Source of the DNA: Trebouxia sp. TZW2008
Lineage: Eukaryota > Chlorophyta > Trebouxiophyceae > Trebouxiales > Trebouxiaceae
Direction: 5' to 3'
Assembly (NCBI GenBank): GCA_002118135.1
Contig: BDIU01000151.1
Coordinates: forward strand, 62,358 to 126,357
DNA: 64,000 nt
Shown here: positions 4,016-60,500 of the stretch, piece by piece
Position numbering within the stretch: the stretch's first letter is position 1
How the letters are laid out: every line of letters starts with the position of its first letter
Notes under the pieces: generated by a model
The model's database searches: none
What the model was told of the DNA's origin: nothing
Seen by the model: the letters and a program-made list of their open reading frames with translations, nothing else
Made by a program: the position numbers and the translations under genes

Positions 4016-4034
4016 CATAGATGCAACCTATCAT

Positions 4035-4039: not shown

Positions 4040-4074
4040 GCCTTCATGATTCCTCTGGGCTCAATTAGGGCAAT

Positions 4075-7000
4075 TCAGCGCTGACTAGGACTCCTTGTGT
4101 TGTAGTCATGATCACTGCTGACTGATGCAGAACCAGAACCAGGCTGAAATCTTTCTGACGCATCAGTGAATGATTGACCGGGTTCCATGTCACCTTCACT
4201 CAAAGCACCGCTAGCGCCATATACAAGGCTTTGACTCTCATCATCGCTTCCTCCAATGATGACGTCACGCAATTGACTCGCAACAGATCCAACTTCATCG
4301 TAGTCCTCTCCCTGCATTGCAAACAGCCTGATGAAGTAATCCAGCGCTTTGTTTCAAGCATATGCGGGCAGCAGGTCCATGACAACAGCTCTTCTGATTG
4401 CATCTTTTGCCACGCCTCCATGATGTCTCATCTCACTTGCATCATGAGCATCTGCTCTTGTCCACTTGACAGGATGGCCAATGCTGCCAATCAGTACAAT
4501 GACCACATGCATTGTTCCTATGTTGGAGACCCATGCTGCTGTTGCACTGACCTGATGGCGGGTGCTTCTGCTCGGCTTCATGACGCGGCCTAGACCAGTG
4601 CCACGGAAGGCTGAAGACAGGCGCTCTCTCTGCCCGTATGACACCCTGATGCGGCCCACAATACGCCTGATCCCCTTGCTCACAAACTTGAAAGCCTGCA
4701 TTCAAAGTGACATTCAATGGCAAAGGGTTCTTCTTACAGGGTTATGACAGGATTTGTGCAACAACGTAGTTGTGCAGTTTTTGCAAAAGGTGTAGCAGCT
4801 GATGTGGGATATCATGTGCATGTGCCTCATGCAGAACTGATGGCAGCTCAGTTGCGCATGCCGCATAGGGACTGGGGCAGAGCGCCTGCGAGCATGGCCA
4901 GCTGGGTTGTGTTGCGTATGACTATGTGCAAGACAGGACGCAAGCAGCACAAATTTATGCTGCACTTATCATCTGGCTGCATAAGCAATAGCAACTTCAC
5001 GTACTCACCTGGATGACCCGGCCTTGCACCCAGTGTTCAACACCCGAGCCAGCACATGATGATGGACAAGACAGCACCACCATTGCAATGCAGCATTCAG
5101 CACAGTACAGACTGCGTTTCATCATTTGGCTGCCTAGGCAAGACAAGAACAGAAGCCTCTGCAAGTAGACAAAGTCCAGGCTTGGCAACAATTTGCACAC
5201 TCACTCGGATGGTCTGGCCTTGCACCCCATGCTTCACCCAGAGCCCGGCCATGCTGCATGTGACCATCAACAACAAAGGAAAGCCTGTACGTGAGTAGCA
5301 CAGCACAGCTTTTGGCCCTCTGAACTGCTTAGGCAACAACAGCTTGGCACTCACCCGTATTGTTTGGCCTTGCACCCAGTGCTCAACTCCAGAGCCTGCA
5401 GAAGCCTTAGGTAAAATCTTCTCGCTGCACAGCCTGTGCTGTCTGTCCATGATGTTCAGCACTGCCAGGTAGACTGAGCCGGCCACTGCAATGCAGGTTG
5501 TTGCCGCTATCAGGAACATGATCATGATCTGATACCTGGCAGCCTGCAACAGGAACATCACAGTCGTACAGGATTGAACACACACAGTACCCCCAAGAAA
5601 TGCCTGTGCTGCCTGTCCATCATGTTCAGCACTGCCAGGTACACTGACCCCGGCACTGCAATTTGTATTGTTGCCGCAATGTAGGAACATGATCATGATC
5701 TGATACCTGGCAGCCTGCAGCAACAACAAAGTCATTCAGGAAAATTGTTTCTGATGTCAAGCACTGCCAGAGAACAATTTGTCACTGTATGCCTGGCATA
5801 CAGAATAGTGGGTGGAAACAACATCGCGTGCTAACAGTGGCACCATCAATCGAAAGAACAATCATCACTACAGTGATGAGAACATCAATGGAATACACAT
5901 CCTGGCTCAGGTGCTAGGTGTGTGTCCTGTAAGTCCTAGCATGATCAAGCCAGCTTGGCAAGACAGGAGTTGTGCCACACACACCTAGCAGATGTGCTAC
6001 AAATGTGAAATTTGATTGCTATCAATGTTGTTGTCATGATTGTAACTGCTATTACTACTTTTACTGTTGAAGTTGTTGTCACCGTCATACAACTGGGTAG
6101 CTGCAGACCTGAGAGGGCACAGTGCCACCCAGAATTTGGCCTGTCATCATGCCAGGGATTGACACCACCCCCATCACGCTCATCTGGTTCAGCACAGGGG
6201 TGAGGGCAAGCACCAGGCAGCGCTGCAATGTCTCTCTGGTTGCCTCCATGCGCGACGCTCCAACTGCCAGCAGCAGCTCAATGCGCCCCTTGCCTGCACA
6301 TCAACTGCACAATGGGTGCCAAATCTTGGCCAGGGCAATATTTTTTGGCTCATCATGGCAAGCACAGCATTTGGCATGCTCAGTGCCCTGATGCTTGAGG
6401 CAACAAACGCAGGGAAATCAACAACAATCTGGCGGGCACAGATTACGCTGCGTAGCCTCTCATGCCGCACCACCAACAGCTCCTGCAGCAGCCTTTAGCC
6501 TCTGCTGTGAGGGAAACAAAAAGGAAACGTCTATGCGGTAAGGCATGTGTAGAAGGCCTTGCACAAACTGTGGCAGCCCTTCTTGCTCTTCAAGCACAGG
6601 CAACAGCAGATCGCATGTCTACAGTGGCCTGAACAGCCACCCTGTTGTACCATTTGCATCTGCTACAAAGGCACTGGCACAACAATTGCACAAACATGTG
6701 CATCAGTAGGCACAGTAGATTTGTTGCTGACATGCTTTTCAATCTTGACATCATTGTGTGCAGCTTTAACTGCGGATTGCTGTGCTTCTGATCATGATGC
6801 TTTTCCGCATGATGCTGTGAGACTTTCAAGCCAGTCTTTGCCTCCTGCAAACACCATTGCAGGAAGCACGGACTTGCTTTTGAGAGGCACAGCATCATCA
6901 AAGCCAGCCTTATGATCAAAAACTGAGAGATCTAGGCTGAGAGATCGCAACCTTCAGCCTCCTGACATGCTATGTATACAGCTCCTGTTTTGTCCTGTAC

Positions 7001-8898
7001 ACTTGTATGTGCCTTTGAATACAATTAGGCTGCATCTTTCTGTCTGATGCATGCTTGGCAACGTGGTTGACCTCACAGCCTGGATCTCACTCTGACAGAT
7101 GGCCCAGACAAGCAAAACAGCCCTGAAATGAACTAAGTAAGGCTTTGCTTGCAGTGGCTGTCAACAGAGCATTGCCGATGAACAAAGCAGTGCCTGTCAT
7201 CAGACCAGTGGCTTCTGCCACAGTGCAGACCTGTCGTGAGGTTTTCCATGACTGCTGACAGGCCAACACTGACTACACCACTGCAGTTACCCAGCAGCAT
7301 GCCCAGCGTGGGTATGAAGTGCTGAGCATTACCCTGACGGACTATGCAAACAAGCAGCATGGCCCACGCCCTGAACTAGATTGTGGGAGGCTTTGATTAC
7401 AGGGCAGACCTGTTGTGAGCTCTTCCATGACTGCTGACAGGCCGACGCTGACTCCACCAATGCAATTGCCCAGCAGCATGCCCAGCGTAGGAATGAAGTA
7501 TTGAGCATGCCACCAGGGCTTCACTCTGACAATCAGCAGCATGGCATAACAGATGACTCCCCCTGATGCTCCTCCCACCATGCCCAGTGTGTTGATCAGC
7601 ATGCCCTGCAGCCAAAGTTTGCTAGTCAGTCATTATGCCCAGTGTATCAGGCAAAATTGCAGCCAAAGCTTGATGATCAGTCAGCCAGTTGGGCTGCAAA
7701 TGCAGTCTGGTTGTCAGTGCTGACATGCATAGGTATACTCATAAATATACTCATGCGCCTCGTCAAGCAAAAGCGTGGCAGGCAAGAGCTGAACTCGAGC
7801 TGAGTCTCAGCAATGACCTCACCAACATTGCAAACTATGCTCAAATCCCCAGCTTTGCTTGAAACATCAATTGCAAAGCTGTTGCAAACACAACATGTCT
7901 TTCATATGCCTCACAGGCTGACCTGCACCCTTGAAGACGATGCCCTTTTCTACAATGCAGCCTACTTGATCTCGCTATGCTTCTGAGCAGGACACATGGT
8001 CTCACCAGAACTGTTAATTTCATGCATTCAAGTTGAATATCAGGTTAAAAGCGTGAGCTTACATGGTAGACAGCTGAGGGGCGGGAGACTGCTTCGGCGC
8101 CTGCAATGGTGATCATGAAGCCAGCATACAGCAGCACCAGCCACCATCGATCATATGAGAAGATTGGGACCAGAATGTAGCCTAGGATGGTCAGTTGAAT
8201 TGTACACCTGCATGCTTTGCAGGTGTTTCGCCAAGCACATAGTCTGTCCTAATTGTACATCAACATATACGATGCAATATGACATGCAATGACTGCATTG
8301 GCCATGCTTGCTGCACAATCTGATGCAACCATACTGCTGCATGCAATCATAGCAAGGACTGTGACCACATGCAGCAGGAGTGCTGCATAAGCTTGCTCCA
8401 GCATGCCAAAGCAGCGTTGCTTGGTGCAGCTCAGGAGCCTTGAGATCCCGCTGTTGCTTCATGCTTGTTGCTTGATGAGCAGCAAAATGGTGAAAGCAAA
8501 CAGAGGACAACCATACTGGCTAAGGCAAGTGGGTTTTACAACAAACCTATGAGGCGACCGGGCATTGGTGTGGTCACAGGCAAATTGCAACAGACAGTCA
8601 GTAGCACAAAAAGCATTATGTTGGCAGAAGGCACCTGCCTGACAGCCGCAATACCCAGAGTCTTGTGCAGGCCCAGGGAGAGGTACACAGACAGCAGCCC
8701 GTTCACCAGCAGCAACAAGGCAGCTAGGCCAAGAGCCAATGGACTAAGGTAAACTACATCTTCGTCTCCATCTGGCCTGGCGTCTGCACCCAACTGTTCC
8801 AAAAGACTGTGCTGGCTAAACACTGCTTGTTGAAGGTGCAGATGATTGAGATTGTCTACCGGATGTGCCAAAGTGCTTCCAGCCAGTGACGCAAACAT
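4075..8898 (-). CDS. UPF0014-family ABC permease, STAR2/ALS3/FetB type
   Basis: Seven exons: 8898-8639, 8207-8063, 7605-7410, 6293-6109, 5543-5355, 4695-4552, 4311-4075; about 451 aa, all phases closed. Conserved UPF0014 features appear in order: LGIAAVRCTIQL, LGYILVPIF, the IPTLGMLLGN loop, ELLLAVGASRMEA, PGMMTGQILGG and the AARYQIMIMFL helix. Bacterial FetB and plant STAR2/ALS3 are membrane partners of a small ATPase, linked to metal (iron) homeostasis and aluminium tolerance. The ~190-residue hydrophilic, Ser/Asp-rich C-terminal tail is far longer than in FetB. The ATPase gene ends about 300 bp upstream on the same strand. Intron 1 is best read with a GC donor (AG|GCAGGT), which restores the AVRCTIQL motif. 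Decayed extra copies of exons 3 and 5 lie in the introns. Confidence 0.9.
5006..5265 (-). repeat. Two decayed copies of the STAR2-like exon-5 3' end
   Basis: Exon 5 ends with a segment reading GSGVEHWVQGQTIR before gtgagt (5355-5400). Related segments at about 5208-5265 (GLWVKHGVQGQTIR) and 5006-5056 (GSGVEHWVQGRVIQ) each retain a gtgagt donor in the same phase. The 5006 copy has lost an acceptor AG; the 5208 copy has diverged. Most likely non-functional, but alternative use of the 5208 copy cannot be excluded. Confidence 0.7.
5595..5714 (-). repeat. Decayed upstream copy of STAR2-like exon 5
   Basis: Begins after ctgcag with the same AARYQIMIMFL coding as exon 5 (5543-5355). It carries a one-base insertion right after that motif; beyond the insertion, the shifted frame again resembles exon 5 (VYLAVLNMMDRQHR). 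A frameshifted duplicated exon. Confidence 0.8.
7229..7375 (-). repeat. Decayed downstream copy of STAR2-like exon 3
   Basis: Encodes FIPTLGMLLGN and VGLSAVMENLTTG followed by gtctgc, mirroring the end of exon 3 (7605-7410) and its donor. The 5' half of the exon is missing, and in the phase needed for splicing it meets a stop. Confidence 0.75.
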
Positions 8899-8943
8899 AG
8901 GGCTGGGAGTGGGTGGGGAATGGGAGGTATGGATTCAGATGGC

Positions 8944-9166
8944 AAACAGCTGACTGAGCTGTCTAGAGGAGGTGCGCGTAGTTCTGCTACTCTTTGTTGG
9001 ATGTGGATGTGAGCTTGGATGTGTCAATTCAGCAGCAAGCAGCTGATGTTTGGAAGAGGTGTGCGTGTATGTGCTACTCTTTGTCTGAAGGTGGCTCCAA
9101 CTCGGAGCTAGCTTCTAGACCGTTGTGGCTGATTCTAGGGGGCGTCAGCAACTGCTCAATAGCAAG
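8944..9166 (-). repeat. Duplicated C-terminal tail of the STAR1-like gene in its 3' flank
   Basis: The segment that encodes the end of the ATPase and its stop (9300-9207, residues near PRISHDGLEASPELE) recurs at about 9163-9033 (PRISHNGLEASSELE, also ending in a stop) and more weakly at about 9032-8944. The unit is about 130 bp. The copies lie downstream of the functional stop, before the permease gene. Confidence 0.75.
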
Positions 9167-9206
9167 CAGCTGACTGCAATATCTAGAAGATGTGTGGGTG
9201 TTTGTA

Positions 9207-10311
9207 CTACTCTTTGCCGTTTGAAGGTGTTTCTAACTCGGGGCTAGCTTCTAGACCGTCGTGGCTGATTCTAGGAGATGTCAGCAGCTGCTCAACAGCC
9301 ATTTCTGTGCCCAATGGAAGCTGCAAGATTCTGCCTCCAACCCTTGCTGGCTGTGAATCATCATGCGTCACCCAGATCAGTGCTGCTCCAGAACTTTTTA
9401 GCACCTTCTCGGTTTTGAGGGCAGACTCAATGTCTAGTGCACTTGTGACCTCGTCCAGCAGCACAAACTGAGGCTTCAATGCAAGCGTCACAGCAAGCAA
9501 TGTTCGCTGAGCTTCGCCACCCTGCATGCAGGCACTTTACTCTTGCTGCTGCTGATGATGATCATCATCATCATCAGTATTGGCATGATGCATATTTGGT
9601 GGTAGTGCGGATTTTGTGCTATACTTGTTTTGTTTTGGGTGCAAGACATGTCAGTGGAAACGTCTTGACAAGACGGTCACAGTGAAGCGTCTGTAAGCGA
9701 TGCTTATGAGAGCAGACACAATGGGGAGCATTGCATACACACCGATAACTCAGACCACTGTTGATTGAGCACGCCTTGCTGAAGACCAAGCTCGTGCACC
9801 AAAGCTGGCAGGTCGCCTCTGGGCCGTCCCTTCTGAGCTGCAAAACGCTGCAACCACATCCTTTTGTTTGCTTTGCTTTCTTTTGTGTGACTCCAGCTGA
9901 GCCGACCTTATGGGGTCTGCAATCACCTGTGCAGTGAAGTAGAGCTCTGAGGGTGTGCCCTTTAACTGCACTCGAGCCTGCGGCACGTATGTGACCAGAG
10001 CGCGCCAATTGGGAACGCCGAGTTGACGCGGTGATCTCTCGTCCAAGGTGATAGTGCCGCCCTGCAGACGACAAGTCACACCGTTCAACAGACCAGCGAT
10101 TGCCGGAGAGCCTCCAACCCCGCGATGTGCTTGCCTCAAACGGATCCAAACAAGCTAGCACTCGCAGGAGAAGGCTTTTGCCGACTCCGCTAGCGCCACG
10201 TATGAACAAGACGTCTCCCGGGCTTCGAACCGAAAAATTGAGGTTCGTGATGATCACACGTCCATCTACGACTCTCTTCAGGTTGCGCACCTCAAGAACG
10301 CTCGACGACAT
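9207..10311 (-). CDS. ABC transporter ATPase, STAR1/FetA type
   Basis: Four exons: 10311-10135, 10061-9927, 9847-9743, 9521-9207; about 243 aa, a normal length for a single ATP-binding subunit. Visible motifs: Walker A GASGVGKS, Q-loop YVPQ, signature LSGGEAQR, Walker B VLLDEVTSALD and the H-loop WVTHD. The GTITLDE and GVPNWRALVTYVPQ segments are typical of the FetA/STAR1 branch that pairs with UPF0014 permeases. Intron 1 has a GC donor (GAG|GCAAGC, matching the AG|GCAAG consensus of GC-AG introns). Its permease partner is the next gene downstream on the same strand. No transmembrane segment or transit peptide is seen, so it is probably a peripheral membrane subunit. It is divergent from the peroxin gene. 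Confidence 0.92.
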
Positions 10312-10729: not shown

Positions 10730-12474
10730 ATGGCTGGCATCACCACTGACCCCAAGGAGCATCTGAAGGTCAGCTTGAATTGCACCTTTCTTGCCGCAGC
10801 ATGATGCGGTACACACAGCCGATGCTCAAGTGTAGTTGTCAGACTCTACTTTGATTGCAGGCCCTGACTGGCTTTCTCAAGCAATCCGATGGTCGCGACA
10901 AGCTGACAGCAGCTGTTCAGGTGAGCGTGCAAGCATTGAATATGCTGACTCTTCCTGTGTAACAGCAAGTGACTCAGCTGGCAGCGCTTTACTGCAGTAT
11001 GCTGCTATGTTTGTTTCTGCTGGGGAAGCAGGAGATGCCAAGAAGGTTCAGATATCTGTGGCTGCTGCCAGGAAAGTCTTCAGGATATTCAGGGTAATCC
11101 AATAGTGCTTCACAATTCACGCAACAGATCAAGCGCTTCTTATGCTCAAGAGCTCTCCCCTGTGTCTGCCTCAGCTGCATGCATGGTCAGATATACCTTC
11201 TGGTGTTGGCATGCCTGCGTTGATGGTTTGCATCTGACATTCCTGATGTTTGCAGCCGCTAGAAGCTGCCTCACCGGTGCTGCTGAACCCTGCACTGAAC
11301 CCCAAGAAGCCGCTGATCATAGAGCTCATCAACAAGGTAAGAAAGCCTGCTGACTGCAAATTGCAAAATGCTCAAGCTGCAACAAGGACACTCTGAGAAT
11401 GTTTTCTGCTTGCTTGCAGCTCAAATCTGTTCTGATGGCTATCTACTTTGCTGGTGACCATGTGGTTTGGGCAAGTCAGGCTGGCATATATACAGACAAG
11501 GAGGGCACAGAGAAGTGTGTCCCCATGCATGCTTGGTCTCAAACCACAGAAAGTCCCATGCACTAGCACAACTTGTCTTTGCACACAAGTCTTGCAGCGC
11601 GCTTTGGTCTATGCGCAATCATCAACCATCTGTATCATCTGTACGTGGTATGTAAGCTCGAGCACTAGATGTTGCACTGTTTGAGATCGCTCTATGCAGG
11701 GCATTGGTGCTGCAAGTCTTTGCGGCAATCCTGCTTGCCACCTGTGACCTGCACGCCGCCTGCTGATTCTATACGCTTGCTGCAGAGCTCAGAAGACTTC
11801 GCTGTGGGGCTGGGCTCTGGGATCAGTGTGTACAGTGGTGAGTGAGTGCTATGAGGTGCTGCAGCTGTCCAAGCCTCCCAGCACCAAGGAAGGCCAGGAA
11901 GCCTGGGAGATCAAGAGAATGAAGGCACAGCAGGAGATCAACACCCGCTTGATCACTCTCATCCATGCCTTGTTCCAGGTCAGCAAGACTCAGCAGTCAC
12001 TGCCATCACTGAGAAAGTCGACTGCTGCTTGTCTTGCGCTGTAGCATTGACTCAAGCACAGCGTAGGCACTGCTGTTGTCTGGGTGCTCTACACCTGTGC
12101 AATCTACTCATCATCCTGCCTGATTTTGTTTGGCGCAGATGCTTGCTGCTTGCTGCTGAAGCTGCTCACAAGCTTGATCTGGTGATCTCATCAGTGACAT
12201 CAGCGGTCTTTTGTGCTCAATTTTACACACAGTGTCCCTTGCCAGTCTGACCTTGACACTGTTTTATGTGCAGACACTGCTAGCAGTGGGGCTGCTGCAG
12301 CTGCGCCCCATGAAGCCACGCACTGTGGGCCTGATTGGTGTCATTGCATCTGTGATGAACTGCTACATGCTTTACCCAAAGCTGCCACCTCCAGCTCTCA
12401 CACCACCCAGGAGCTATGCAGAGGCCGCATCAACACAACAGCAGCCGCCAAAGGTGGAGCTGAAAAAGGCTTAG
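10730..12474 (+). CDS. PEX11: Peroxisomal membrane protein PEX11
   Basis: Seven exons: 10730-10768, 10861-10920, 10998-11093, 11256-11336, 11420-11514, 11786-11978, 12274-12474; about 254 aa, the usual PEX11 length. PEX11 proteins insert in the peroxisomal membrane and drive elongation and proliferation. Recognisable pieces: FLKQSDGRDKL and QYAAMF at the N-terminus, ARKVFRIFR, DHVVWASQAG, SLWGWALGSVCT and the C-terminal GLLQLRPMKPRTVG with LPP near the end. The 295-bp last intron contains an attractive but frame-incompatible stretch near 12140-12185; direct joining of exons 6 and 7 gives the better family match. A TGTAA signal follows. Confidence 0.9.
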
Positions 12475-12519
12475 GACAGCAGATACACGTGTATACATAG
12501 TTGCTATACAGTTGCTCTG

Positions 12520-12524
12520 TGTAA
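12520..12524 (+). terminator. TGTAA poly(A) signal, PEX11 gene
   Basis: TGTAA lies 45 bp after the stop codon, a plausible green-algal polyadenylation signal. Confidence 0.4.
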
Positions 12525-13062: not shown

Positions 13063-16000
13063 CTAGACATCCACCACACCGCCAAACAATATTGAGGCCA
13101 AGATGACAGCAAACAACAACCCCGCGCAATGTGATACTTGAGAGGTGATAGCCATCAGGCCTGCTGCGTTTGCTTTGTGGTTGGCTGCCACACAGGTCGG
13201 TGCAACCATGTAGGAGCAAGTATTCAGATAGCCTCCCAAAGCCCACAGCACTGTGACATAAGCTGCATCACCCAGCTTTAATTAATGCTTTTAAGTCAGA
13301 ATGATCTCAAGCCTTTTGCATGTCAACAACGGCTCGCTCACTTTGCAGTTTAACACCAAGGTGATCATGCTGCATTAAAGCTCACATTGACTATGCTGAA
13401 TACAGCACACAGGTGCTTGTCCATGCATGCTGATGCCGGTACTGTACTTTGCATGAAGCAGGTGCAAGGGGTATGTATATGAGCTTGCGACCAAATGCCA
13501 GCACATCATGAGAAGCAGTCATGCCTAGGTCACAGGCGCTGATGCAGCAACTGCAGCGTCCCCTGACATGCAAAAGTCATGCTGCACTTACCAGTTGCGG
13601 CCGCATCACTGTGCCACTGATCTCCACTTTTGAGGTAGACAAAGCAGACAGGGGCTGCAGCAAGCTTGACAAAGCCTAGGTACATGAGAATGTTGGGTGA
13701 CTCAATGGCAAACATTTTCCACTTTGGTAATGTTCTGCCAACTAGGTTGGCAATTATTGTGCCAAAGAAGAGAACCTGCAGGCAACACGATGTCAGTCAA
13801 CAAATTGTCAGTACATATGTTTGACAATGGCACAGGGTTGAGAGGAAGGCCATTTGAGCCCAAGTTGATTGGGCAACATTAACATTCCTTGCCATGTATT
13901 GCCCATCCAAGCCAGTTCAATGCTGCATGTAAGTAACACAGCTTTGCAAAGCTGCTGCTGACAATGCAAAAGCTCTCACACTGTGCCTTGTGACAAGCAG
14001 ATTTACAAAGCTGCAAACACCTCACCTTAGGCAACAAATCATTTAGCCAGCCAGACGATGGCACATAGGTGAAGAAGGGAAACACCATGATTCCCACCAC
14101 TCCACTTAGAAACAGGGAAATCATGACTGGCCAGATGTCCTTGACAACCTCCATCGTCACAGAACCTTCCCTATGAAGTCCAACAGGGGAGTTCGCAAAA
14201 GGAGATGTTGGGGAATGGGTGCCCACTTGGTGTTGGGGCGGACTACTCAGGGGACCTGAATAGACACACTCAGCAGCTAACTCTCGCAAGCGACATTGCA
14301 TGATTCTGGACGTAGTCTACAGGCAACCGCCATGACCAAACATGAACTGCAATGAACATGAACTGCAATGAAAATGATAACACCCCGCTGTCATGAGCGT
14401 TGTCACCACGGCAATGATCATGTCCAGTCTGTCAGAACATGAGAGAGGGATTGTTTGTTAGGTAAGCTGCTTGGCACCATGTTACATGACGTGCAATGAC
14501 AGCATTGACCATGCTGACAATCAAGTCCTGGGAATGCAAGGAGCTGGTGAGCAGGAACACAGCAGGACACAAATGGGTGGCCTGGGAGCTGACCAGAGGT
14601 GACGGGAAAGGGGGAGTAGGCACTGCTGGGGGGAGAGCCTGGGTGGGCGGCAATCTGCTCATGCTCTGCAATAGCTCCCAGTGATGGCGCTGCATCACAC
14701 TTGAAGTTACAATCAATTGGGCACAGCAGACCACAACACACATGCATCTAGACACACATGCATCTAGTCAACTGAGAGAGTTGTGATGCAAAATGATGGG
14801 GCATGATTTGTAATGGGCCTTAGTGATGGCTCTGCAGCAGAATTATGATGCAATTGGCTTGAGACGATTGTTACACATGCATGTATAAGATGAAAGGGTT
14901 GTGTTGCAAAATGTTGGATGGTTGGGGGACTATGCTCTGCAATGGCTGCCATTGATGGTGCTGCACCACAGCCATGTCACAACAACTTTGAGCATCAATA
15001 GCAAACCATCAGACACATGCATCTAGGGCAATGGAAGGCAGCATGCTGCAAAATGGCTGTCTTGCTCCCTAAAGACAGCAGCTTGATGAAAAGTTGGATG
15101 AAATGGTTTTCTATCAATACCCATTGTTACGCAGCACTTTGTGCTGAGATGAGGCAAAGCCTCGACCACTGCCCCATCAGTGATCACACATGGCACACAT
15201 GTCAACGCGCTCACACTGGCCATGCATGTGCAGCAGCCAGGTCAAGTACAGCAAGCTACTGACATGAGTACACTTGATACAAGGACACTGTTGTTGTCTT
15301 GAAACTGCAATTTGGAACCGGTCAATGCGTCGTGACTGAATTGACGCTGCGGGGCAACCATGACCTGCTGTGAGGGTTTGTAGAAGCAAAAGCACTCCTC
15401 ACATCAAGAGACTGCTTCACCTGCAACAGCAGCTCTGGAGGCGCCTGTGACTTTGGCATGATAGGCAAGGGGCGCTGTATCTCTGGAGGTGGAGGTGACG
15501 GGCACTGAGATGGTGCGCCTGAGGCTGCTGCGCTGAGGACTGCTGCCGGTATGGGCAGCTGCTGCAGCTGCATCAGCCGGCCTGAAGGTGAAGGTTGCTC
15601 CACGCCGCAGAGCTGGCTTGCCTGCAATGCAGCAGTAAGGAGGTTGACAACAGTGATAGCACCTGTTGAATGATGTGGCGGGGACTGCTGTTCGTGTGTG
15701 CGGTCGCTGCAACAGCATTGGCGGGCCTGAATGTGAAGGTTGCTCCTTGCTATAGAGCTGGCTTGCCTGCAATGCAGTGAGAGTGATGCAAAGCAGGGTG
15801 AGAAGGTCTGTTGGGTGCTTTGGACAATGACAGCATGGGCAGCCGCTGCTGCTAGATCAGCTGGCCTGAATGGCAATGGCAACGACAACTGCTGTAACAA
15901 TCACATTGGCAATCATGACGTCAGTCACAACGACAATGTTGAGATGACAACCAGGACAATGGCGACAGTAGTGATGGTAGATGTCATGAAATACAAGTTC

Positions 16001-20236: not shown

Positions 20237-20912
20237 ACATTGGTTCGGACAGCGGAGCAGTAGGGCATCCCAAGCATCAACGGGATGTACATCATCAAGT
20301 TCAGCAACAATTGTTTCAACTGTCCCAGGCTCCTGCTACAACGCCTAGCGGCATACACTTTTCTTTTTTGTTTTCTGTTCTTTCAACTGACATTTTGGTC
20401 AATAAGATCATTGCCAAATCTAGATCTGCAGGTGTTTAGCATCAGTAGCTGTGCTGGTGCATGGCGGTTACAGCAGCTTGTGGATCACAGACATCTAGCC
20501 ATTTCTTGCAGTGATACACTAGGCTGTCTGTAGTCCATAGAGTCTAGCTCATGCTGTTTCTGTGCAATTGTTTTCACTTCGTGCCTTTACAAGCAGGCAT
20601 ATACCGAAACGGCAATGTGTACAATGTGAACACAATCCATCCACGTTTGTGCAGGGTTAAGAAACATTTGGCAGGCTGGGGACAGGCAAGCAGTGTCAGA
20701 CAGTGTCCAGTGCAAAGGTGTTGTGACTAACTATAAGATGCACGCTGAGTATGTTGAGAACACGGTCTCTTGAGCGCTCTGCCAACTTTACGGGACGCGG
20801 CGACTTGACCATGGATGCGGCGCAGTCGCAGTTGAATTCATTTGAGCAAATTGATAGAGCTCGTCATTGCGACGCGCGCCATTGACTCATGTCGTCCAGA
20901 TGAGCTGCATGT
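20237..20912. other. Intergenic, tandem genes
   Basis: 3' flank of the methyltransferase and promoter of the WrbA-like gene, both on +. No recognisable coding. T-rich near 20350-20400. Confidence 0.5.
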
Positions 20913-23645: not shown

Positions 23646-28335
<4,690 letters not shown>

Positions 28336-48500: not shown

Positions 48501-51500
48501 AGGTGTCAGCTGGGGCTGTGTCAAACTGCCCCAGGGCTGCTGCAGCCAGGGCTGTCCCCCAAGGGCCCCAGCCCTCAGTGGGGCCTGCTATACCTGCCCT
48601 GCCTGCATTCTGCTGTGTGACCAACAAGGCATCCACTGCCGACGCCATGGCTGCTCCCTCTATACCTTCTGCTAACTGCAACAGGATTGAAAACAATTGT
48701 CAACGCTCTTGATGTTAGTGATACTGACAGCAGTAAGTGACCAGAAGGGCATCCACTGCTGACGCCATGACTGCTCCCTCTATGCCTTCTGCCAAGTGCA
48801 ACAGGTGAAAAAGCGCCCTTGATGTATTGAGTATATTCTGTGTTCCTGTACTTTCGACAACCTGGTATGTTCCAGCTAGCCTGACATTGAGCTAGCAAGT
48901 GAGTAAACTGATGCTGCGATCATTTCAATGAAGGATGCTCTAGGTCTGAATTTCAGCTGCAACCTCGGTGCAATGTGTAACCGCAGGCATGAGTGTCCAC
49001 ACAGAATTTTGGGTGCTCGACCTTGTGACAACTTTTGAAAATGGGGTTTCTGTTGACGCTCAGGTGACAGAATACGTACACACACAATGCAGAGCATGCA
49101 GACAACATGTACAATCAACCAAACAGTCAGTCAGTCAGTGAGCCAACCTGCCAAGCAACAATCAACACGGTTATGAAGTGCAGGGTGTAGCTGACACAGC
49201 AGGCTTCACGCATACATGCAAACGCAGAGCATGCAGACAAGACAAACCTGAGGCGTAGCAGGACTGGGCGCTCTGAGGGCAGGTTGCATTTTGAGGGCTT
49301 CCTTGGCAGGGCTGAACGGGTCAACGGCCTGCTGCTGGCGGCTGCTGTGACGCAATACCGGGGGCTCAGGGGGTGGGAGGCAGCCAGACCCCCCTGGGGC
49401 CTTGGGAGGGTCCACAGCCCCAGCGGCCCCCGGCTTCATGGCCAGTGCTATCGAGCTGCAAAGCATGTTATGGATCAGTACCAGCAAGCAGAATCGGTGT
49501 TGGGGTTGAGGGTTGCAGGCACCCACTGAAAGGCACAGGGGGTTCATAGCCTCAGTGCCTGCCTGCTTCATGGCCCAGGCTATTGAGCTGCAGAGCAATG
49601 TATGCGTCAGCACCGGAAATGAGCTCCCGCAAGCCCTGTCTATCTGGAAAGCTGCCACAGCCTCCATACACTATGAACCGGTATCGCAGTATGAGCTTGA
49701 GCATTGCAAACCAGCATGTGTCTGGCAGCAACACTTAGGAGCTTTGATGATGCATGACTTACTTGTATGCTTTGTCCAGGGCAGTGGAGAGGGCCAATTC
49801 CCGCAAGCCCCTTCTATCCAGGGCAGCTGCAACAGCCTCCACATCTTCTATGTGACTCATCATGCCCACTCGGCCTTGAAAGTCCTCCACATACACTACT
49901 CCCCTTTGACCTGCCACACCCCACCTGAACAAGAAACAGACAGGTTGGCTGTGGGCACTGCCACTGATATGTCTGGTGTCATTGCGTGTTATGGCAAGTA
50001 CACATGCTGAGTATTGCATGAGCATGTTGTAGCCTGTAGCCCTACAAACAGTGGTGGCAGTTCACAGAGAGCAACTAGCACAGAAAAAGCAGTGGAATGA
50101 TCACAAGCCACAAAGGCGATACATCGGGATGACACATCAATGGGATGACCACAAAGCAATGAAGACATGCAAGGACCAAGAAGAGGTTCAGACCAGTAGA
50201 AGCGGTGGTGGCGGTCCATGCCCAGCGGGTTGCGCCGCACTGACAGCTTCTCCAGCTCCTTCTCGTAAGCTTCCTGCCGCCTGCAGCATGACAAATCAGG
50301 GCCCTCAGCATTACAATGTGTCCTTGATGCCACAAATGCGTTTGCTTCAAAGAGTGTTGTGCTTGCTCACAAGTGATAATGCAGTCTGACTGCAGTTATG
50401 CCTTCCCAGTTGTGTTGTACTTACAATGACTTGTCTCGCAAGTAATCTGACACTGCTGTATTACTGTGAATGCCTTGCATTCTGTGTGAAGCTGAAGTTG
50501 TGCAACTTGAAGTCAGGTGTCTGCATGTCTTTTGTGTATACTCAAGGTATACTCAAGTGCAAGAAGTAGCACTGGTAAACAAACAGTACAGACGAAAGCC
50601 ATGCCATCACCTGATCACACATGTTGACGGATCATGAGCAAAGAGGAATTTGGCCTTTCTGGCATGGCCCATCAGCATTGCATGCGTCGATTGCTCATGG
50701 TCACATGTGGTGTTTGTCTTGCAATTGTGTATATTTACGCTTTGTTGATTGAAGTGATTGACAGGTGTTGCTTAAGTAAGTTTTGGACATGCACCATCAG
50801 CACTGCGTGCTTAGGTTGCCTGCTGCCACAACCGTGCAGTAAACAAGATTACTAAGATGCAACTGAAAGGTCCTTGATCACAGCAAATGCTACCTCTGCA
50901 AGACTGTGCAAGCTTTCCTGGCACGTTTAATCAGCACTACGTGTCTATGTTGCCTGCTGCCTCAGCCATGCAGAGAACGAGATTGCTATGAGTCAGGTCA
51001 CAGGCCGTTGATCATACCAAGCTCTATCTCTGCTAGGCTGTGCAAGCTGGCATGCCATATGCGGGTGCTCTGAGGCAGATGACGACATAGATAATGTGTG
51101 AATTTGTCAGCACATGTGCTAGATGGTTGTGGCACAAATCTCGGCTGTATGTGATGCAGATGATAACACCTGTAGCTTCTAGAGGTCTGGCCTTCTGTGA
51201 TGCATATGTGCAGGGTGAGCTGACCAGAGCCATCAAGGCATATCCCACCTGACTGACAGCTCCTCAGTGTCAACCTTCTCCCGCGTCTTGGCCTTTTCAG
51301 CTTCAGCAGCGGCGCGCCTCTCAGCATCCCGCGCTTTGCTTTTTCGGCGTGTCTCGGCCTGCCAGCGCGTGCGTAGCCCATCCAGCCGTTGCCTCTCAGC
51401 CGTTTGGGCTTGACGGAAAAGCAGTTGTGCTTTGCGGTCACCGGGATTGCCGCTGTACTCTTGCAGTTCTGGCGGCAGCTCCCAGTCTGGCTCCTCTTCT

Positions 51501-54500
51501 TCAGGCTCTTGCACACCCAAGCTGCCAGCTCGGCTGCTAGACCTGCACACAATTGAACAACGAATTTTCAGGCGTTCACTCAGGAGTTTTGCTGTTTCTT
51601 GAGTTGCAGAAGTGTACAGCATGCTTGCTGTCAATAAGCAAAGTGCACCAGCCAGATAGCCTCAACCAAGATACGTGCAGGCTGCCAGTTCAGCTGCTGA
51701 ACCTGCATGTTTTTGGGATATTGCCGTGTAAAGGACTACTGATGATGCTAGTACATGCATCTTTGAACCATTCATGACTTTTGCCATCACTGGGGAAACT
51801 TGTGCAGGTCAATGTTTGTATGCACAGCTGCCTAGGTGCTGTGCAAGACTGCAGCTGAGCATACCTCTCATCAAGGCCTGACAGCTGGGCCTCCAGAGGG
51901 GCGACCCCATCAGTGTCAAGGGGTCCAGAGGGACCAGCCTCGTCCTCCTCTTTCACTTTCTTTGAGCCCTCTTCCCGCCGAAGGCGCCGTTCCTCTTTCT
52001 CTTGTATCTCTAGCTCCTGCACAAAGCCCCTCGTCAATTGCTTTGCATTTATCGCTCAACGCTACTAGGGTGGATAGGACCAAGCCTACATGACATTGCT
52101 GGCCAAAGAGTCACCATGCAGAATTCATCCATGACTGTCCTGTACGCCTGCTCTAAACAGCAATGTGCATCAGCAATTGTTTGTCAGGGCAACAAACATG
52201 ATAGTCTGCAGCAAGAAATGCAACTGCCGGTTGTCAGGCAAAATTTGGCCTTCAAGCAGCGTGACACCAAGCACAAAGTGACAGGAAAAGGGCCCAGCAC
52301 GTGACAGTTATGACTACAGCACATGACACTTATGACTACAGCACATGACAATTATGACCATCTGCAATGCATTGGATATGCTGTGTATGATCAGCTGAGC
52401 TTACCTTCAGTTTGCGCTTGTCCTCTGCAATGTCTTCCCTCATCTCCTTCTTCACCTCCTCTGCCCCATCCACCCTCTGGCTCAGGGCTTCCCTGAGTGC
52501 CTCTGTGTCTAGTGCCTCATCACATAAATACCTGAACGGGAAAATTGGCGTACTCAATGTTTGATCAGACGTGATTGCCTTGCACAACAGGGCAATCCCA
52601 TGGATGTGTTGACAGGCACTCACATTGCACACATATCTGGATAGGCCACTTGCGCAATTAACATTTGCTGAGTGCCGACATTGCCGTAACATACTGGAAA
52701 GCTGCAAAAAACAGCAATGCTACAAGTGTGTTGACTGAGCCATTGCGGGGCAGTGCACGTGGTAAAGGCACAATCAGCTTGTTCAAAGCAGCAAGAATAG
52801 TCTTTCTGCTACACATCACGACTCGAATTCCACTGCACTTCTTGCGTCCAATATTGACGTGAGCAAGGAAAGATGCTGCTGTGGTTTCAAGGCAGTGGCA
52901 GTCTGAGACGCCAGCACAGCCGCAGCAGAGTTAGCGGTGGGGCATGGTGGCAATGCTGCTTTGCACGCTGAGCCAATTTCAAATTCAAGCGGGGTTGGCT
53001 TCTCACCTGAGCAGGCTGAGATGCTGCTGTGGTTTCAAAGCAGTGGCAGTCTGAGATGCCAGCAAGGCAGCAGCAGCGCTGACTCTGCTGTTGACCAGGC
53101 AGTGGGATATGGTTGCAATGCTGCTTTGCACGCTGGGCCAATTCAAATTTCAAGCGGGATTGACTTCTCACCTGAGCAGGCTGAGATGCTGCTGGGGTTT
53201 CAACGCAGTGGCAGTCTGAGACGCCAGCAAGGCCGCAGCTGAGCTGACCCTGCTGTTGACCAAGCGATGTGGCATGGTTGCGATGCTGCGGGACAGCACA
53301 TAGCGGCGCAAAATCTCAGGCCAGGTACCAGCAGTGTTGAGGACCGCCCATCGGTATTCAATGGGACTTGGTGACCCCTGCACGACAGCAGCAGCCTGAT
53401 GGTGATATTGGCTGACTCAGCATGCTGCTGGGATTGGCTGATATTACAACGCAACAAGCAGAATTTCTTTCTACGCAATATCAACGACCATGCACAGATG
53501 TGCAGCAGAAATGGCAGACACCCAAGATGCAGTCACTGACTATGTTGCAGGTAGAATGCAACAGTGCTTTGAACGAGTCAAATAGCAAAGTGCAGAGGCT
53601 TGATGACAGAAATGATGCGTACTTGCTGCCATAGCACGATCAAAGCTGTGCCTGCAAGCGATCTATATGGTTTGCATGACAAGAGGGGACTACATGAGGA
53701 ATGCCAGGGGCTGCTTAGCATGCACAATGCTCACATGGACAAATGCAAAGATTACTGCAAAGGCAGAGGCACTAACAGATGACAATGGAACAAACCTGCA
53801 GCAGGAACTGCAACAAGCCCCTGTACAGCTCAAAAAGCCCTTCATTGGCTGCAGCCACTTCTTCTTCACCGCTGCTGAGACCATTGGCAACACCGCTGGG
53901 AGCTGTGCTGCTGACAACAGGGCCATTTGGTACTGGACCTGCTGCAGCCGTCCCATTGGGCACTGCAGCTGTTGCCGGCGCCCTACCAGAGGCGCCCACA
54001 GCGGCAGAGCGGGCGGCCCCAGTTGTGGCGCGGAGGGCAGCAGGGTCCAGGAGGGTGTCTGGGGGTATGGCGGGGTGGAGGAAGGATGCCAGCTCTTGGA
54101 ATGCGATGGGCTTGATGGCTAGCACATTGGTGAATTGTGTGAGGAAATCAGCCACATATAGCATGGAAGCGACGTGGTCTGACTGCTTGACTGATTGCAA
54201 AGGAGGGATTGGCACATCAAAGCGGCCTGCATTGCAAACGAGCAGAGTCAGCATGGTCAGGAATATGCATGATGGGATCGATCACCCTTATTGAGTAAAG
54301 AACAGCAACTGCAGATTATAGACGGGATGTTCAGCAAAGCATCTTGATTTGATACGACTGGTGAGTGAACAGCTGCAGCATGATGTTCACAGCTATGCAC
54401 TGGCAAACTCAAAGCTGTGTCTGCTCCTTCTGCAACCCTCAGCAAGCAGCTGCAGTTCAACAGCGCAACCTGCCCATCACGCTGGACAGCACCAGACTGT

Positions 54501-57500
54501 CACTAAAGGTGCCTTGACTTGAACACCATCTGAAAAGTACTGACTGGCAGATCCAGAGCTGCAGCTGCCTCTTCTGTGCTGCTCAGCAACAAGTTCCAGC
54601 TCGTCATTGGCGCACTTCTTAGCATGCAGGACCTGAGTGACGTGTCAACAATACAGTCACAGCTACTCACTGGCAGATCCAGAGCTGTAACCACTCCTTC
54701 TGCGCTGCTCAGCCACCAACTCCAAATCGTCAATGGGATACTTCTTGGCTTGAACTGCCTCGAGGCGCCTCCTGTCACGCTCCTCCCTTTCAATGGCCCT
54801 CACCTTGTCTCTCTCGTCCCTCTCACGGTTCCGCCTGCTGTTGCTGTCAGCCCGGTTGTACTCCCTGCACAAATCACAAAGCATACCGGTGTGCTTGTTT
54901 CTATTCTGATGGCTGTTATGGTCAAATGAGTCCACTGCCCACACAGCTACAGGCCTGTGAAGGCGCTTCTGCTCAGCTTGTGGGTGGTCCAAGAAGCAAT
55001 GAGGCATGCATGTGCTTGAGTCTTGCTCAGTAGACATTGCGCAGACAACATGTTGCGTTCAGTTGCACATTCCTTACGACTGGGCTCTTACATGACTTTA
55101 CATGGCCTTATATGCATGACGCAGAGCAAGCAATGTTGAGTCCGCAATGGGGATGCAGCAATGTGCACCTGTTGAGAGCCTTGTCAGCATCAGCAGCTGC
55201 CTTCTCGGCAGCTGCCAGGCTGGCTCTTGTAGCTTCCAGCTCTTCTTGAGCCTCCTGCAGCTTCGCACGTGCACTCTCTGTCTCCTTGAAGCCGTCAGAC
55301 ATGGTACTGTTGCGCTTTAGGGTCTGCTCACGCATCCACTCATCCTGCAGTGCAATGCAGCATAGGCAAATTAGTTGCAAATAACAGCTCACCAACCGGT
55401 GTTGTTTTGCAAGAGGCAAACAGATTCTGAGCAGCCAAGGAACAGGATTGCATGTTTGCGTCCATGTTGACAATACCTGCCGGCCTGCCTACCTGCCTAC
55501 TCGCCAGCCATGCAGCCAGAAGGCAAAGATGCAATGAAAGCTGCGTCTCTACAGCGTAGCTGCTGTCCTACTGACAGACAGGCAAGCAATCAGGCAGGCA
55601 GAGCCAATTGGATAAATAAACAGGGTTTGTCAAGATACCTACGACTGGACCTTGAGCTCAGCAAGATGCCTCTATAGTCTCACAGCTACACTCAAGACAG
55701 ACAAGCAGGCAATCACAGGGCACAGTTTATGGACACACAGTATACCTCCTTGCACTGCAGCTGGAGCTCAAGCTGGGCAAGATGCCTCTTGCATTCACAC
55801 TCAAGACAGGCAAGCAGGCAATCAGAGGTCACAGATTATGGGTACACAGTATACCTTCTTGCACTGCAGCTGAAGCTCAAGCTGGGCAAGATGCCTCTTG
55901 CGTCTACACTCAAGACAGACAAGCAAGCAAACAGCGGGCACAGATTATGGGTACACAGTATACCTTCTTGCACTGCAGCTGAAGCTCAAGCTGGGCAAGG
56001 TGCTTGCGGTGGGAGGCTAGGTCCTTCTTGTTGGCGGGGTCTCCTCTGTACTCTGCCTCCCCATCCCCCACCCGGAAGTCAGGCATCTCAGCTGCATGAC
56101 ACCAAATGTCTCAACAACTACACATCAATTGATGAATGCAGTTTTGACGTCTAACAAGCCAGCAGGGTCACACCTAGACAACGTCAATGCAGCATGTGCA
56201 TGACATGCGTCTTCACATGTGTTGATTGTGCAAGCAGGAAAAACTTTTGGCTTGCTGACAAATTTCAGAAGGCATGTTGCAAGCATTGTAAACCCAGGTG
56301 TCCTGGCTGCAGCATAGCATCAGGCTGAGACATTCAGCATAGATACCAAGATGTGCTGTTGCCGTGACATTGCATTACTTAAGCAAGCTGCGTTTTGCTC
56401 ACCCATCTCTCCGTCTGTGAGCCCAGCGCGTCGCTTCAAGGGGCTCTTGTTTCGAGCTTCAGCCTGGGACACCTGCTCCATCAAGCTGTCCACATCTGCC
56501 TCAGCCTGCAACCAGATCACTTCCTCTGAGCCTTTGCTTTTGAGCCAGTTATTCAGCAACGAAAAGCCATTTCCTTCACAACTGTCTGACATGTTTGCAG
56601 ACCTTGATTCATTTGGTCATCACACACAAAGTCTCACAGAATGCGCTCATCGGCATAGCACTAAGTTTCAACGTGCCCAATGTGCACACAGAGAGTGCAA
56701 GTCGGGCTGGCATGCAATCTCTGCCATGGGCAGTCAGACAACAGCACCACAGCATGCAGTGCTGAAGCATCCATGCAAAGGCCACTAACTCCTCTGCACA
56801 CAGCACTCATCAAGAGCCTCACATACATGGCAAAGATTTTGTACCTGCTCAATCTTGCGCATGAGGTCGCCAACAGCCTGGCGTGCCGCGTCTGCCACCA
56901 CCTCAGCTCGTGCAATGTCGTCATCCCTCAGGCTGGCTCTGCTGCCTAGGTCTGAACCAGCACTGCCCTCCCTGCTGCCAAACAGCCCGCATCAAAGCAT
57001 GGACACTCACGCTGATACTGTTATTGACATATTGATACTGACCGCTGTTAGCGTGCGCAATCCCCAGTGCCTGCTGCGCTGCCCAAGTGATCTGTGAGAG
57101 TTCTGCGTAATAATGCTGAGCATGCAGCGCTCACAAGTCCTGTCCGGCTGCCCAAATGGCCCCAGGCATCAAGTGATTTGTATTGGCATTGTCAGCATAC
57201 AAAATGCATGAGGGAGATTAGGCTGCCCAACAGCCTTTGTTCATACGCATCTAACACTGCAACTATTAGCGTGTAAGGCAGGGTCTAAAGCGGCTGCCAA
57301 GCAGGCGTCATGCATATGCATTGTCATCTACCTGCATGGCACCTGTCAGCATCAAAATGGCTCAATGACCCACTTTGTTGCTCACTAGCTTCTATCCAAT
57401 ATCTCGTATTGCATTGGGCGAATCACTGTGGGCTTTGTGACCAATAAGTCCATCACAGCTGTTCACCTTAACTTGGGCTGGTACGGTCAACGCATACCTG

Positions 57501-60500
57501 TAAGAGCCCCTGTGGTCCAGGCTAATCACATACAGTGGTGATGAGTGCAGGCATGCACCACTTTGTTATAGCTGTTACATCTTGCAAGGTGTAAGCATAC
57601 CTGTAAGAGTCCCTGTGGTCCAGGCCACGTCCAAATTGCCCCCGGCTGCCCTTGGGGGTGTTGTGTGGCACTGGCCCCACATTGCCTGCAAGTGCCCTCA
57701 GGGCATATACGCCCTTTCGCACCCTCACAAACGCTGCATCATTGGACAAAGCCTGCACAGACAGCAGATCCACCTTACAAGACACATCCTTACAAACGCT
57801 GCACTGTTGGACAAAGCCTGCACAGACAATAAAAGCAGGCAGTGAGCCAAATCTGACATGTATTTGGGTACAAACTGCAGCCATAGCAGCATATGCAAAC
57901 GTTGTACGCTGCTATCTTCATGGCTGCTTCTGATTTTGTGCAGCTGCAGCCCTTGGCAGCATGCAGCCAATGTAAAGAGAAACAGTTTTATGCAGAGATG
58001 GCTGTATTACAGCCCGTGTCCAAAACAGGATAACGCAGTCTCCTGTCATGTTCGACATGACTGCTGAGAGCAAAGCTTAGACAGGTGCTGGCGCACAACT
58101 GGTGTGAAATCTGTGCCGAGATGGCAAAGTGCAGATGCACATATGAGCATATAGGAATTGGCAAATTGAGACCGTCTGATAACAGACTTGACATGGCGAA
58201 GCCTGTCTTGAAGGAGCCATCCGAGAAATCGGTGAGTAACCAATTGCAGAATGTGTTTCCCTCTTGACAACAGCAGAGAGTGATGGCTGACAGCTACAGA
58301 ATGCATTCAGCTCCCAGCATGCCAGACATAGAGGACCTGCAAACTGCAAGATGCTTTTACCTCCCAGCAATGAATGATGGCTGACGAACTGCAAAATGCG
58401 TTTGGCTCCCAACTTCAGCATAGATTCACAACTTACAAACTGCAGAATACGCTTGGCTCCGGGCTCCCACTCTTTGAGGCCGCGCTCCTGTGACACAGCC
58501 ATGATGTCACCCAGTGACATGCCATCCACTCCCGCATCTTTCAGCACTTGTAATGACACGGCCTTGTTGGTGCCTGGCCGGAAGCGCTCCTCTTCTTCCT
58601 GCAATCCGTATACACATGATCATGATCACGCGACCAACATACACATGATCATGCAACCAACGTACACATGAGCAAGACCATGCAAGCTAGGTGCAAGATT
58701 TCTTCAGCAATTGCAACAACACTGCCTTGTGGCTGTCTGGCTGCAAACCTTCTTCTTCCTCCAGCGCCAAATACACACGTGATTGTGATCATGCAAGCTG
58801 GGCATGGCGTGGTCATCATCATGTTTGTACAGGACACTATGGGAGTGCAGTCATGCAAGCTGTGCACACATGACCCTGCGCATTTGCAACCTTCTTGGTG
58901 TCTGTCCAAACATGGCAAAGGGCACAAAGTGCACATTTCTAAGTTTCTAAAGCCATCTTCAGGCAGACTGAGTCGTTGTGATGCTGTGTCTCATGGTCAA
59001 CCCCCAATCAGTATCTCTTCAGTGTGACAAGCTTGCAGGCTGCAAGTCTGTCATTGTCTTGAAAGCTGAGCATTGTTTGACCCAAACACACCGCAATGCA
59101 TGCCATGCACAACTCAAGACCCCCCTCCCGCCCTTCCCACCCCCACCTTCCCTGCCCCTCGCCCCCCCTTCTTTTGGAGTCTATGAGTAAGCCTTTTACA
59201 TCACATGATTTTCCGCATGATTTTCCGCTGGTCAACTTTCTTTTCCTTTGTCTTCCTGCTCACCTCCAAGGTTCTGATGCCATCTTCAGGCAGGCTTGAG
59301 CCGTTGTGATGCTGTGTCTCATCATCATGGCCAAAATGGTATCTCTCCACAGCCTCATCATCATCATCTTCATCGTCAAAGACCCACTCCTCTGAGTTGT
59401 AGGCCCCCCGGGCATAGGGGGGGTTGCTGGCCCTCTTGCTGAAAGGGGGAGGGTCACTGTCAATTTCTAGCTTCATACGCTTCTCTGGCCTAGGTGCTGC
59501 ACTCCCTGCAGATTGCAAACGATGCACATCAATTGAAAGCTTTGCAGCTCAGCGCATGTTGCCAAGTGGCAAAGCTGACATGTCATTCTGCGTTTTGGTC
59601 CTTTGCAGCAACACTCTGCGTTCTGTTCTTTCTCAGGTCTATTGTCCTTCACTTGTGCATGTAAGCGTGAGAGGTGCAGATGGTCTGCACAATGTTCGTC
59701 AAGCTTTTCCATAAAAGGGACACTCATGTGACTTCAGCTGCAGAGCACGGCAGTAACTTGGCCATGTGATTGACCTGTTGTACATGCTGTGCCGTGCACA
59801 AGTCTCAGCTGCAGTCTTGCAAGGCGCATAAGCAGCCATCCGTGTTTTGCGCTGGTGTAAACATGATGTGGTCGCGCTGCTGCTGTCCTGCAGCTGTATG
59901 CTGAAGAGCCTATCTACAAAGTCCCTTGCTGATCGGGTCAAATTTTAGCAGTTCGACCTGAACAGCCTGTCAGAACAGCTGTCAGAGACCTGAGCTCCAC
60001 AATCCTGCTGCAGCTTGGTGACGTTCTGTGGCTTCACACTTCCAGTCCAGCGTTGTGCTCAAGGACATGCCCCAGCAGTGTTGCAGACAACTGCCAGGTA
60101 TGACAGTCTGAAATGCTGAGATGTACATTTGCCGCTGCATCATTACATGTTGACATCATTCAAGTATCACAGCAGCCATCAGAATTGTCTGAGATGCTGA
60201 TTGCAAGAGAATGTGCATAAAGATGTGCATGACAACACAATCAGATGCTGAACGGCAGCGAGACTGACTTGCAGAAGTTGTGCGTGGTTACCCATCCAGA
60301 TGCTTGTGGGCATGAAGACTCACTTGCAGAACGCTTCCCCTTTGTGGGAATGGGCACTGGGGGCGGAGGGGGGGCTGCCAGCCAATCCAGCACATCCTGA
60401 GGCACCTCAGATGGCAGATTATAGCGCTGCTGGACTTCTGGCCGTGCTACCCATACCATACCGCCAACCACCTCCTGCTGCTCAGCCACCTACAGCAGGG

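Follow-up and report, generated by a model that had tools for sequence, protein, structure and literature searches.

Dense local duplication of exon ends in the genome of the green alga Trebouxia sp. TZW2008

A 64,000-nucleotide stretch of the genome of the green alga Trebouxia sp. TZW2008 (assembly GCA_002118135.1, contig BDIU01000151.1, positions 62,358 to 126,357; hereafter the window) contains many diverged local duplications in which the end of an exon and some of the neighboring intron occur more than once in direct orientation, one copy being used and the others lying in the adjacent intron. An initial annotation had described such duplications of exon-intron boundaries in the STAR1/STAR2 pair and in genes for ENT, beta-tubulin, exportin-7, a prolyl hydroxylase-like protein (P4H), and a chromatin factor. 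They are real: the genes and coordinates hold, and we found 25 clusters of local direct repeats in the window and none in two dinucleotide shuffles of it. The duplication habit is also genome-wide, as had been suggested, with 98 clusters in 270 kb (about 1 per 2.8 kb), and the copies lengthen introns. On balance we lean towards random local duplication, with selection sparing those duplications that leave reading frames intact and likeness persisting longest wherever one copy is constrained. About a third of the clusters have sharp ends at the splice signal, and this exceeds what duplication and decay alone explain.

The contig set that includes the window comprises 527 contigs of a 68.5-Mb genome. 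Self-BLASTN of the window returned 46 repeat pairs, 41 local direct and 5 long-range. Local pairs were defined by a score of at least 48 bits and an offset of 35 to 1000 bp, with low-complexity pairs dropped; the 25 clusters contain 40 local direct pairs, and there is 1 local inverted pair. The genome sample consisted of 26 loci (270 kb, window included), with 213 local direct pairs versus 11 inverted pairs. Locus L001, which overlaps the window, and five loci of low GC content (L005, which also bears Ns, L014, L024, L025, and L026) were left out of the counts; the latter five carry 15 of the 113 clusters detected before dropping. Genes were predicted with an ab initio finder written for the analysis and trained on the sample itself (38 long nonoverlapping open reading frames, fixed length priors), which converged on the donor CAG/GTRAGY and the acceptor TGCAG/G, with a median exon of 113 bp and a median intron of 243 bp. 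Its models sometimes fuse neighbors, as happened to STAR1 and STAR2 and to tubulin and the ribosomal-S13-like exons, and it predicted many extra copies as exons in their own right, which adds boundaries.

Expected placement was obtained by rotating the repeats against the annotation. A copy lies across a predicted splice site in 23 of the 25 window clusters (14.1 expected), in 72 of the 98 clusters of the whole sample (56.5 ± 4.2 expected), and in 49 of the 73 clusters outside the window (42.4 expected; P = 0.04). Among the 98 clusters, intron-only clusters are below expectation (9 versus 19.2), as are intergenic ones (2 versus 7.9), and the two exon classes are at expectation (12 versus 11.5 and 3 versus 3.0). 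The preference for boundaries survives this check, but it is only modest, because chance placement alone puts about 58% of clusters (56.5/98) on a boundary; most of the apparent targeting is thus a matter of geometry, with a real but modest excess on top. The extra copies lie only outward of the exon in 57 clusters, only inward in 4, in both directions in 9, and in neither in 28. The proposed rule that copies sit upstream of acceptors and downstream of donors is nearly forced by geometry, because whichever copy continues into the remaining exon has to be the one in use. Periods fall within 120 to 200 bp in 52 of 98 clusters, with a median of 165 bp among 66 boundary pairs, and show no preference for multiples of three (remainders 0/1/2, 35/30/33). 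In all four duplications contained within one predicted exon (L016, L021, L029, and L031), the period is divisible by three.

The clearest case is an array of five 181-bp copies at an acceptor end of the exportin-7 gene (38750-39630, + strand), in which the used copy starts at 39499 and the intronic copies start at 38779, 38958, 39139, and 39320. Homologues about 60% identical support the identification of this protein as exportin-7 (for a query that was partly approximate); an Apatococcus protein is among the nearest, and a Coccomyxa protein has 64% identity over part of the alignment, in keeping with a trebouxiophyte green alga. We compared the array with 8 of the 120 homologues listed. In the Marchantia homologue the array peptide is present once and continues onward; of the five copies this homologue matches just the last, from 39499 into the remainder of the exon. 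The Nelumbo homologue stops within the array peptide, and five algal-like homologues stop before it. The predicted exon 37651-37737 is probably false, since the Marchantia homologue joins the exon that ends at 37433 directly to the peptide encoded by the 39499 copy.

The copies fall into two classes. They are adjacent or overlapping in 52 of the 98 clusters, in line with the head-to-tail arrangement originally described, but in the other 46 they are separated by at least 25 bp, and in 37 of these 46 the spacer has no likeness to either flank at a z of at least 3. Adjacent single pairs (n = 16) are placed as chance predicts (boundary, 10 versus 8.9; intron, 4 versus 3.7; exon, 2 versus 1.6; intergenic, 0 versus 1.8), and adjacent multicopy arrays (n = 36) are close to it (boundary, 30 versus 26.5; P = 0.09). 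The clear excess lies in the spaced class, and boundary duplication as such, put forward as the underlying process, is not supported: among spaced single pairs (n = 33), 27 span a boundary (15.2 expected) and only 1 is confined to an intron (8.2 expected). Spaced pairs have longer periods by definition, so periods cannot usefully be compared between the classes.

In the same 33 spaced single pairs, likeness stops 2 to 12 bp inside the intron in 17 (2.6 expected; maximum, 7 in 100 rotations), and at 85% identity or more it does so in 10 of 15 spaced pairs (1.2 expected; maximum, 4). By class, such ends occur in 19 of 46 spaced clusters, 3 of 16 adjacent single pairs, and 10 of 36 arrays, a total of 32 of 98. 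The pattern was first spotted on the 16 spaced boundary pairs of highest identity, many of which share the exon and about 3 to 11 intron bases and then nothing; some share 18 to 30 bp of intron, and one shares 133 bp. In a held-out set from which 13 of these 16 discovery pairs had been removed, so that up to three may remain, 10 of 33 spaced pairs have sharp ends (2.6 expected; 0 of 500 rotations). Where one copy is fully noncoding in the models, sharp ends are found in 13 of 24 spaced pairs (2.1 expected) and in 3 of 9 adjacent pairs (0.9 expected). A new 34-kb sample gave 10 clusters, 4 of them spaced; in this small sample a sharp end was seen in 1 of the 4 (P = 0.25) and in 0 of 2 single pairs. 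A branch-point motif precedes the used and decoy sites in 54% versus 38% of spaced cases (n = 13) and 71% versus 41% of adjacent cases (n = 17); T content is equal upstream of used and decoy acceptors, and branch-point scoring was not strong enough to identify the native flank. Selection acting against copies with complete splice signals was also considered and set aside, because ends just inside the exon are rarer than expected (spaced class, positions -50 to -3: 10 versus 16.4).

The extra copies decay near-neutrally, like noncoding DNA. They diverge from the used copy by 0.155 in the exon part and 0.183 in the aligned intron part, and differences at the three codon positions (210/188/363) fit one neutral and one constrained copy. 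They contain 16 stops in 1,586 codons, compared with 23.0 ± 4.9 in simulations that place all divergence in the extra copy, and they have net frame shifts in 14 of 66 cases and more nonsynonymous than synonymous codon changes (361 versus 259). Across the set of 66 the two copies do not both keep an open, constrained frame; single loci may differ. Between extra copies of one array, codon-position differences are 352/278/473 (third-position share, 0.429), and the exon-derived part differs by 0.186 versus 0.313 in the adjoining 40 bp of intron, a comparison in which the intron part of some pairs was never shared and the extra copies were detected through their exon part. Gaps show the same contrast (2.4% versus 14.1%). 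The lower divergence of the exon part favors homogenization or constraint.

Splice dinucleotides are kept in 56 of the 66 extra copies, compared with 0.67 for other dinucleotides (z = 3.0 after edge correction). At dinucleotides at least 6 bp from the alignment edge, retention is 48 of 56, and about 0.8 is expected from constraint on the used copy (an estimate made without simulation). Decoy splice sites of the kind suggested are mostly retained, but by this estimate retention is little above what used-copy constraint gives, and stops accumulate at a roughly neutral rate; the apparent excess retention of decoy sites was set aside after this constraint had been allowed for. The intron-gain model of Rogers was likewise set aside. 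Only 1 of 66 extra copies ends within 15 bp of the far end of the intron, and 34 of 66 are uninformative on this point since the copy reaches past the predicted intron; these 34 are mostly copies predicted as exons themselves.

The best pair of a cluster is 70 to 90% identical in 89 of 98 clusters. One best pair reaches 95% and none reaches 97%, whereas 75 of 858 pairs are at 95% or more in a simulation with uniform ages; two further short pairs that are not the best of their clusters (40 and 34 bp) reach 95% and 100%. The copies are therefore diverged and not echoes of assembly, as the initial annotation held, but its description of the process as ongoing finds no support in these ages. Either the burst of duplication is past or young copies have been collapsed in the assembly.

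The explanation that we lean towards starts from what was observed, namely, the density and positions of the clusters, the near-neutral decay of the extra copies, and the chance placement of simple tandem pairs. Local direct duplication of about 60 to 400 bp would have struck an intron-rich genome densely and regardless of gene structure, and only duplications leaving one uninterrupted reading exon would survive selection. Where an exon end was duplicated, the copy joined to the exon body would stay in use and the other, outward in the intron, would decay as noncoding DNA. Likeness would persist longest over the exon and the few bases of splice consensus, where one copy is still constrained, and as a consequence boundary-spanning copies would be over-represented among detectable ones and their visible ends would fall just inside the intron. 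The duplications may have arisen by break repair or template switching, and homogenization, such as gene conversion between exon parts, may have acted on the spaced, sharp-ended pairs; a lower divergence of exon than of intron parts between extra copies is what homogenization of the exon part would predict.

We simulated this process with 1,500 uniform tandem duplications on the real annotation, in which the used copy was constrained, the rest was neutral, and the detection thresholds were those applied to the data; duplications contained within a single exon, or starting and ending in exons, were omitted. Decay alone does raise the number of ends 4 to 11 bp inside introns, to 118 of 859 (13.7%). 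Several results nonetheless weigh against random duplication and decay as a full account. The observed frequency of such ends is 33 of 129, and the simulation also gives too few boundary-spanning clusters (427/840 versus 72/98 observed) and too few spaced pairs (178/840 versus 46/98), the latter most plainly at 85% identity or more (23/339 versus 15/24). Spacers of at least 20 bp are unlike the matching flank in 30 of 36 pairs (P above 0.05; the remaining 6 fall below 0.05 and 2 of them below 0.01; median, 0.57), and residual likeness is absent in 10 of 11 pairs at 87% identity or more. Even adjacent arrays end 2 to 12 bp inside the intron too often (10/36; 2.8 expected; maximum, 8 in 100 rotations). 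Nor is gene conversion demonstrated by the clustering of differences between copies, which is evident in adjacent pairs (8 of 29 below 0.05; combined P = 1.5e-6) and weak in spaced ones (3 of 28 below 0.05; combined P = 0.026). The shortfall of the simulation and the unrelated spacers together mean that more than simple decay is required, either homogenization of the exon part or copying that started at splice signals.

Copying of the latter kind would carry an exon end with its splice consensus some 100 to 350 bp outward into the adjacent intron and leave an unrelated spacer, alongside ordinary tandem duplication; such copying might be set off by DNA breakage or polymerase stalling at splice sites, or be primed at the recurrent TGCAG or GTRAGT motifs. 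The sharp ends of spaced single pairs argue for it, as do their persistence at high identity, in the held-out set, and where one copy is fully noncoding, and the rarity of intron-only placement among single spaced pairs. We nevertheless think it rather unlikely. The sharp ends fall where the constrained zone of the used copy stops, as is also predicted if likeness simply survives longer inside that zone; the pattern was discovered on 16 of the same pairs, and the sole new sample gave one sharp end among four spaced clusters and none in two single pairs. We also know of no mechanism that accounts for the outward-only direction.

Less likely still is that the extra copies have been kept through use, as alternative splice sites or as alternative or poison exons. 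The retained splice dinucleotides would fit this, as would the gene finder's calling of about half of the copies as exons (the 34 of 66 that pass the far intron end) and the lower divergence of exon-derived parts between extra copies. Against it, constraint on the used copy alone predicts nearly the same retention by our estimate; stops, frame shifts, and nonsynonymous changes accumulate; periods have no bias toward multiples of three; and nothing corresponding to the extra copies is present in the exportin-7 homologue from Marchantia. That the pattern is an artefact of assembly or annotation we regard as highly improbable. The models come solely from an ab initio finder that was trained on the sample itself, and extra copies called as exons add boundaries of their own, but identity is under 95% in 97 of the 98 best pairs, unlike assembly echoes; the models recover known domains, and a homologue bears out the exon junction in exportin-7. 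The edge signal also remains where one copy is fully noncoding in the models.

Exon duplication with alternative splicing, in which a second exon copy with its splice site lies in an intron, differs from the Trebouxia case in that the copies here are often partial exons with decaying frames. Small tandem duplications have reportedly been studied in rice by Vaughn and Bennetzen in 2014. In the parts of the literature consulted, both internal duplications and the gain of introns through tandem duplication are established phenomena (PMC3443670, PMC4974935), and internal gene duplication is cited as commonly observed (PMC4974935, citing Gao and Lynch 2009). As there, within-gene segments across exons and introns have been duplicated in place in Trebouxia, and the copies are direct and local; unlike there, in many pairs the copies are kept apart by a spacer of unrelated sequence and stop at the splice consensus, and detectable clusters occur about once per 2.8 kb. 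In the potato RdRp gene, a tandem genomic duplication of intron-exon structure, over an intron end and the following exon, created a new spliced intron (PMC4974935), whereas the otherwise similar Trebouxia copies sit within longer introns. Repair of DNA breaks yields small tandem duplications, introduced in the account consulted as short (<100 bp) insertions (PMC8355091); these are direct, local, and short and are a plausible source of the adjacent class, but the median period in Trebouxia is longer (165 bp), and splice anchoring plays no part in that account. The outline and searched passages of the Coccomyxa genome paper (PMC3446292) make no mention of such exon-end copies, and no green-algal copies of this kind appeared among the matches listed in the open-access literature, judged by titles and the openings of abstracts.

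Pfam searches of the window models identified ABC_tran and UPF0014 (STAR1/STAR2), Tubulin, 2OG-FeII_Oxy_3 (the prolyl hydroxylase-like protein), and WAC_Acf1_DNA_bd with HARE-HTH (the chromatin factor); Nucleoside_tran (ENT) was listed below the cut-off. The clusters number 4 in STAR1/STAR2, 3 in ENT, 1 in beta-tubulin, 5 in exportin-7, 2 in P4H, and 10 in the chromatin factor, and there are none in the PEX11 model (10730-12474), the FMN-reductase/Bmt2 model (18861-23216), or the ribosomal-S13-like exons (about 27977-29619; Pfam match below the cut-off). At 1750-10311 (- strand), a STAR1-like ABC ATPase adjoins a STAR2-like UPF0014 membrane protein, the two being predicted as a single fused gene. 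Exon 5355-5543 of STAR2 has clusters at both ends, a donor-end cluster (4977-5054/5325-5400) found by self-BLASTN and repeat detection and an acceptor-end cluster (5432-5573/5602-5741; 84.6% identity). A further STAR2 donor-end pair (7220-7508) consists of a used copy at 7399-7508 (exon 7410-7605) and a decoy at 7220-7329, which are 87.3% identical over 110 bp, have 11 bp of intron in common, and are separated by an unrelated 69-bp spacer. STAR1 has an adjacent tandem copy (9034-9299; 80.6%) at the donor end of exon 9257-9521. The ENT clusters (14661-15026, 15537-15777, and 16151-16389) and the donor-end copy in beta-tubulin (24401-24610, of exon 24587-24846; 82.8%) are also on the - strand; the last two in ENT are acceptor-end clusters sharing 11 and 9 bp of intron.

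On the + strand, repeat detection in exportin-7 also gave a donor-end array of three copies (33248-33643), an acceptor-end pair (33849-34152), an adjacent 65-bp tandem pair (36031-36164) at the acceptor of exon 36151-36292, and an acceptor-end array (36552-36877). The introns of this gene also contain short stretches shared over long range (32542-32598, 37506-37592, and 39851-39925), mostly inverted and perhaps another dispersed element. In P4H (+ strand) there are an acceptor-end pair (42504-42802, exon 42727-42949; 82.5%, 4 bp of intron shared) and a multicopy cluster (43883-44459) around the acceptor of exon 44324-44481. The chromatin factor (- strand) has a degenerate multicopy cluster running into its predicted last exon (45997-46711, exon 46666-46887; 71.3 to 93.8%), three clusters found by repeat detection (48617-48811, 49408-49614, and 50796-51048), an array at the donor end of exon 53172-53377 (52857-53289), a donor-end pair (54538-54752), and a donor-end array of three copies (55645-56003). 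Its exon 57601-57752 has decoys on both sides (donor side, 57492-57522, 96.8% over 31 bp; acceptor side, 57785-57828, 88.6% over 44 bp), and a donor-end pair lies at 58930-59349 (exon 59264-59496; 78.5%, 7 bp of intron shared).

Separate from these clusters, a dispersed element of about 55 bp occurs in the window at 5946-5998 and 47856-47909 and at no fewer than 41 further sites in the genome, in both orientations. An Rfam search of the window gave no family at the gathering score. The same sequence at unrelated loci, as introner-like elements would give, was not seen among the repeats of the window, where 41 of 46 pairs are local and the 5 long-range ones are short; a genome-wide search with the extra copies was not made. 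Among the loci left out of the counts, L014, L024, L025, and L026 have a GC content of 0.39 to 0.44, no predicted genes, and many local direct and inverted repeats, and three of them contain tRNA genes; they are likely organelle or foreign DNA in the assembly.

If exon ends were copied outward from splice signals, one mutational process would be linked to splice sites and would directly generate decoy sites and lengthen introns; the machinery of splicing or transcription would then leave a mutational trace in the genome, seeding introns with exon fragments that bear splice sites. Under random local duplication, the reading that we lean towards, extrapolation of 72 boundary-spanning clusters per 270 kb to 68.5 Mb would give about 18,000 such duplications genome-wide. 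At each, the spliceosome would pick between a used and a decoy site of common origin, so that the genome would amount to a natural experiment, on a large scale, in how real splice sites are defined.

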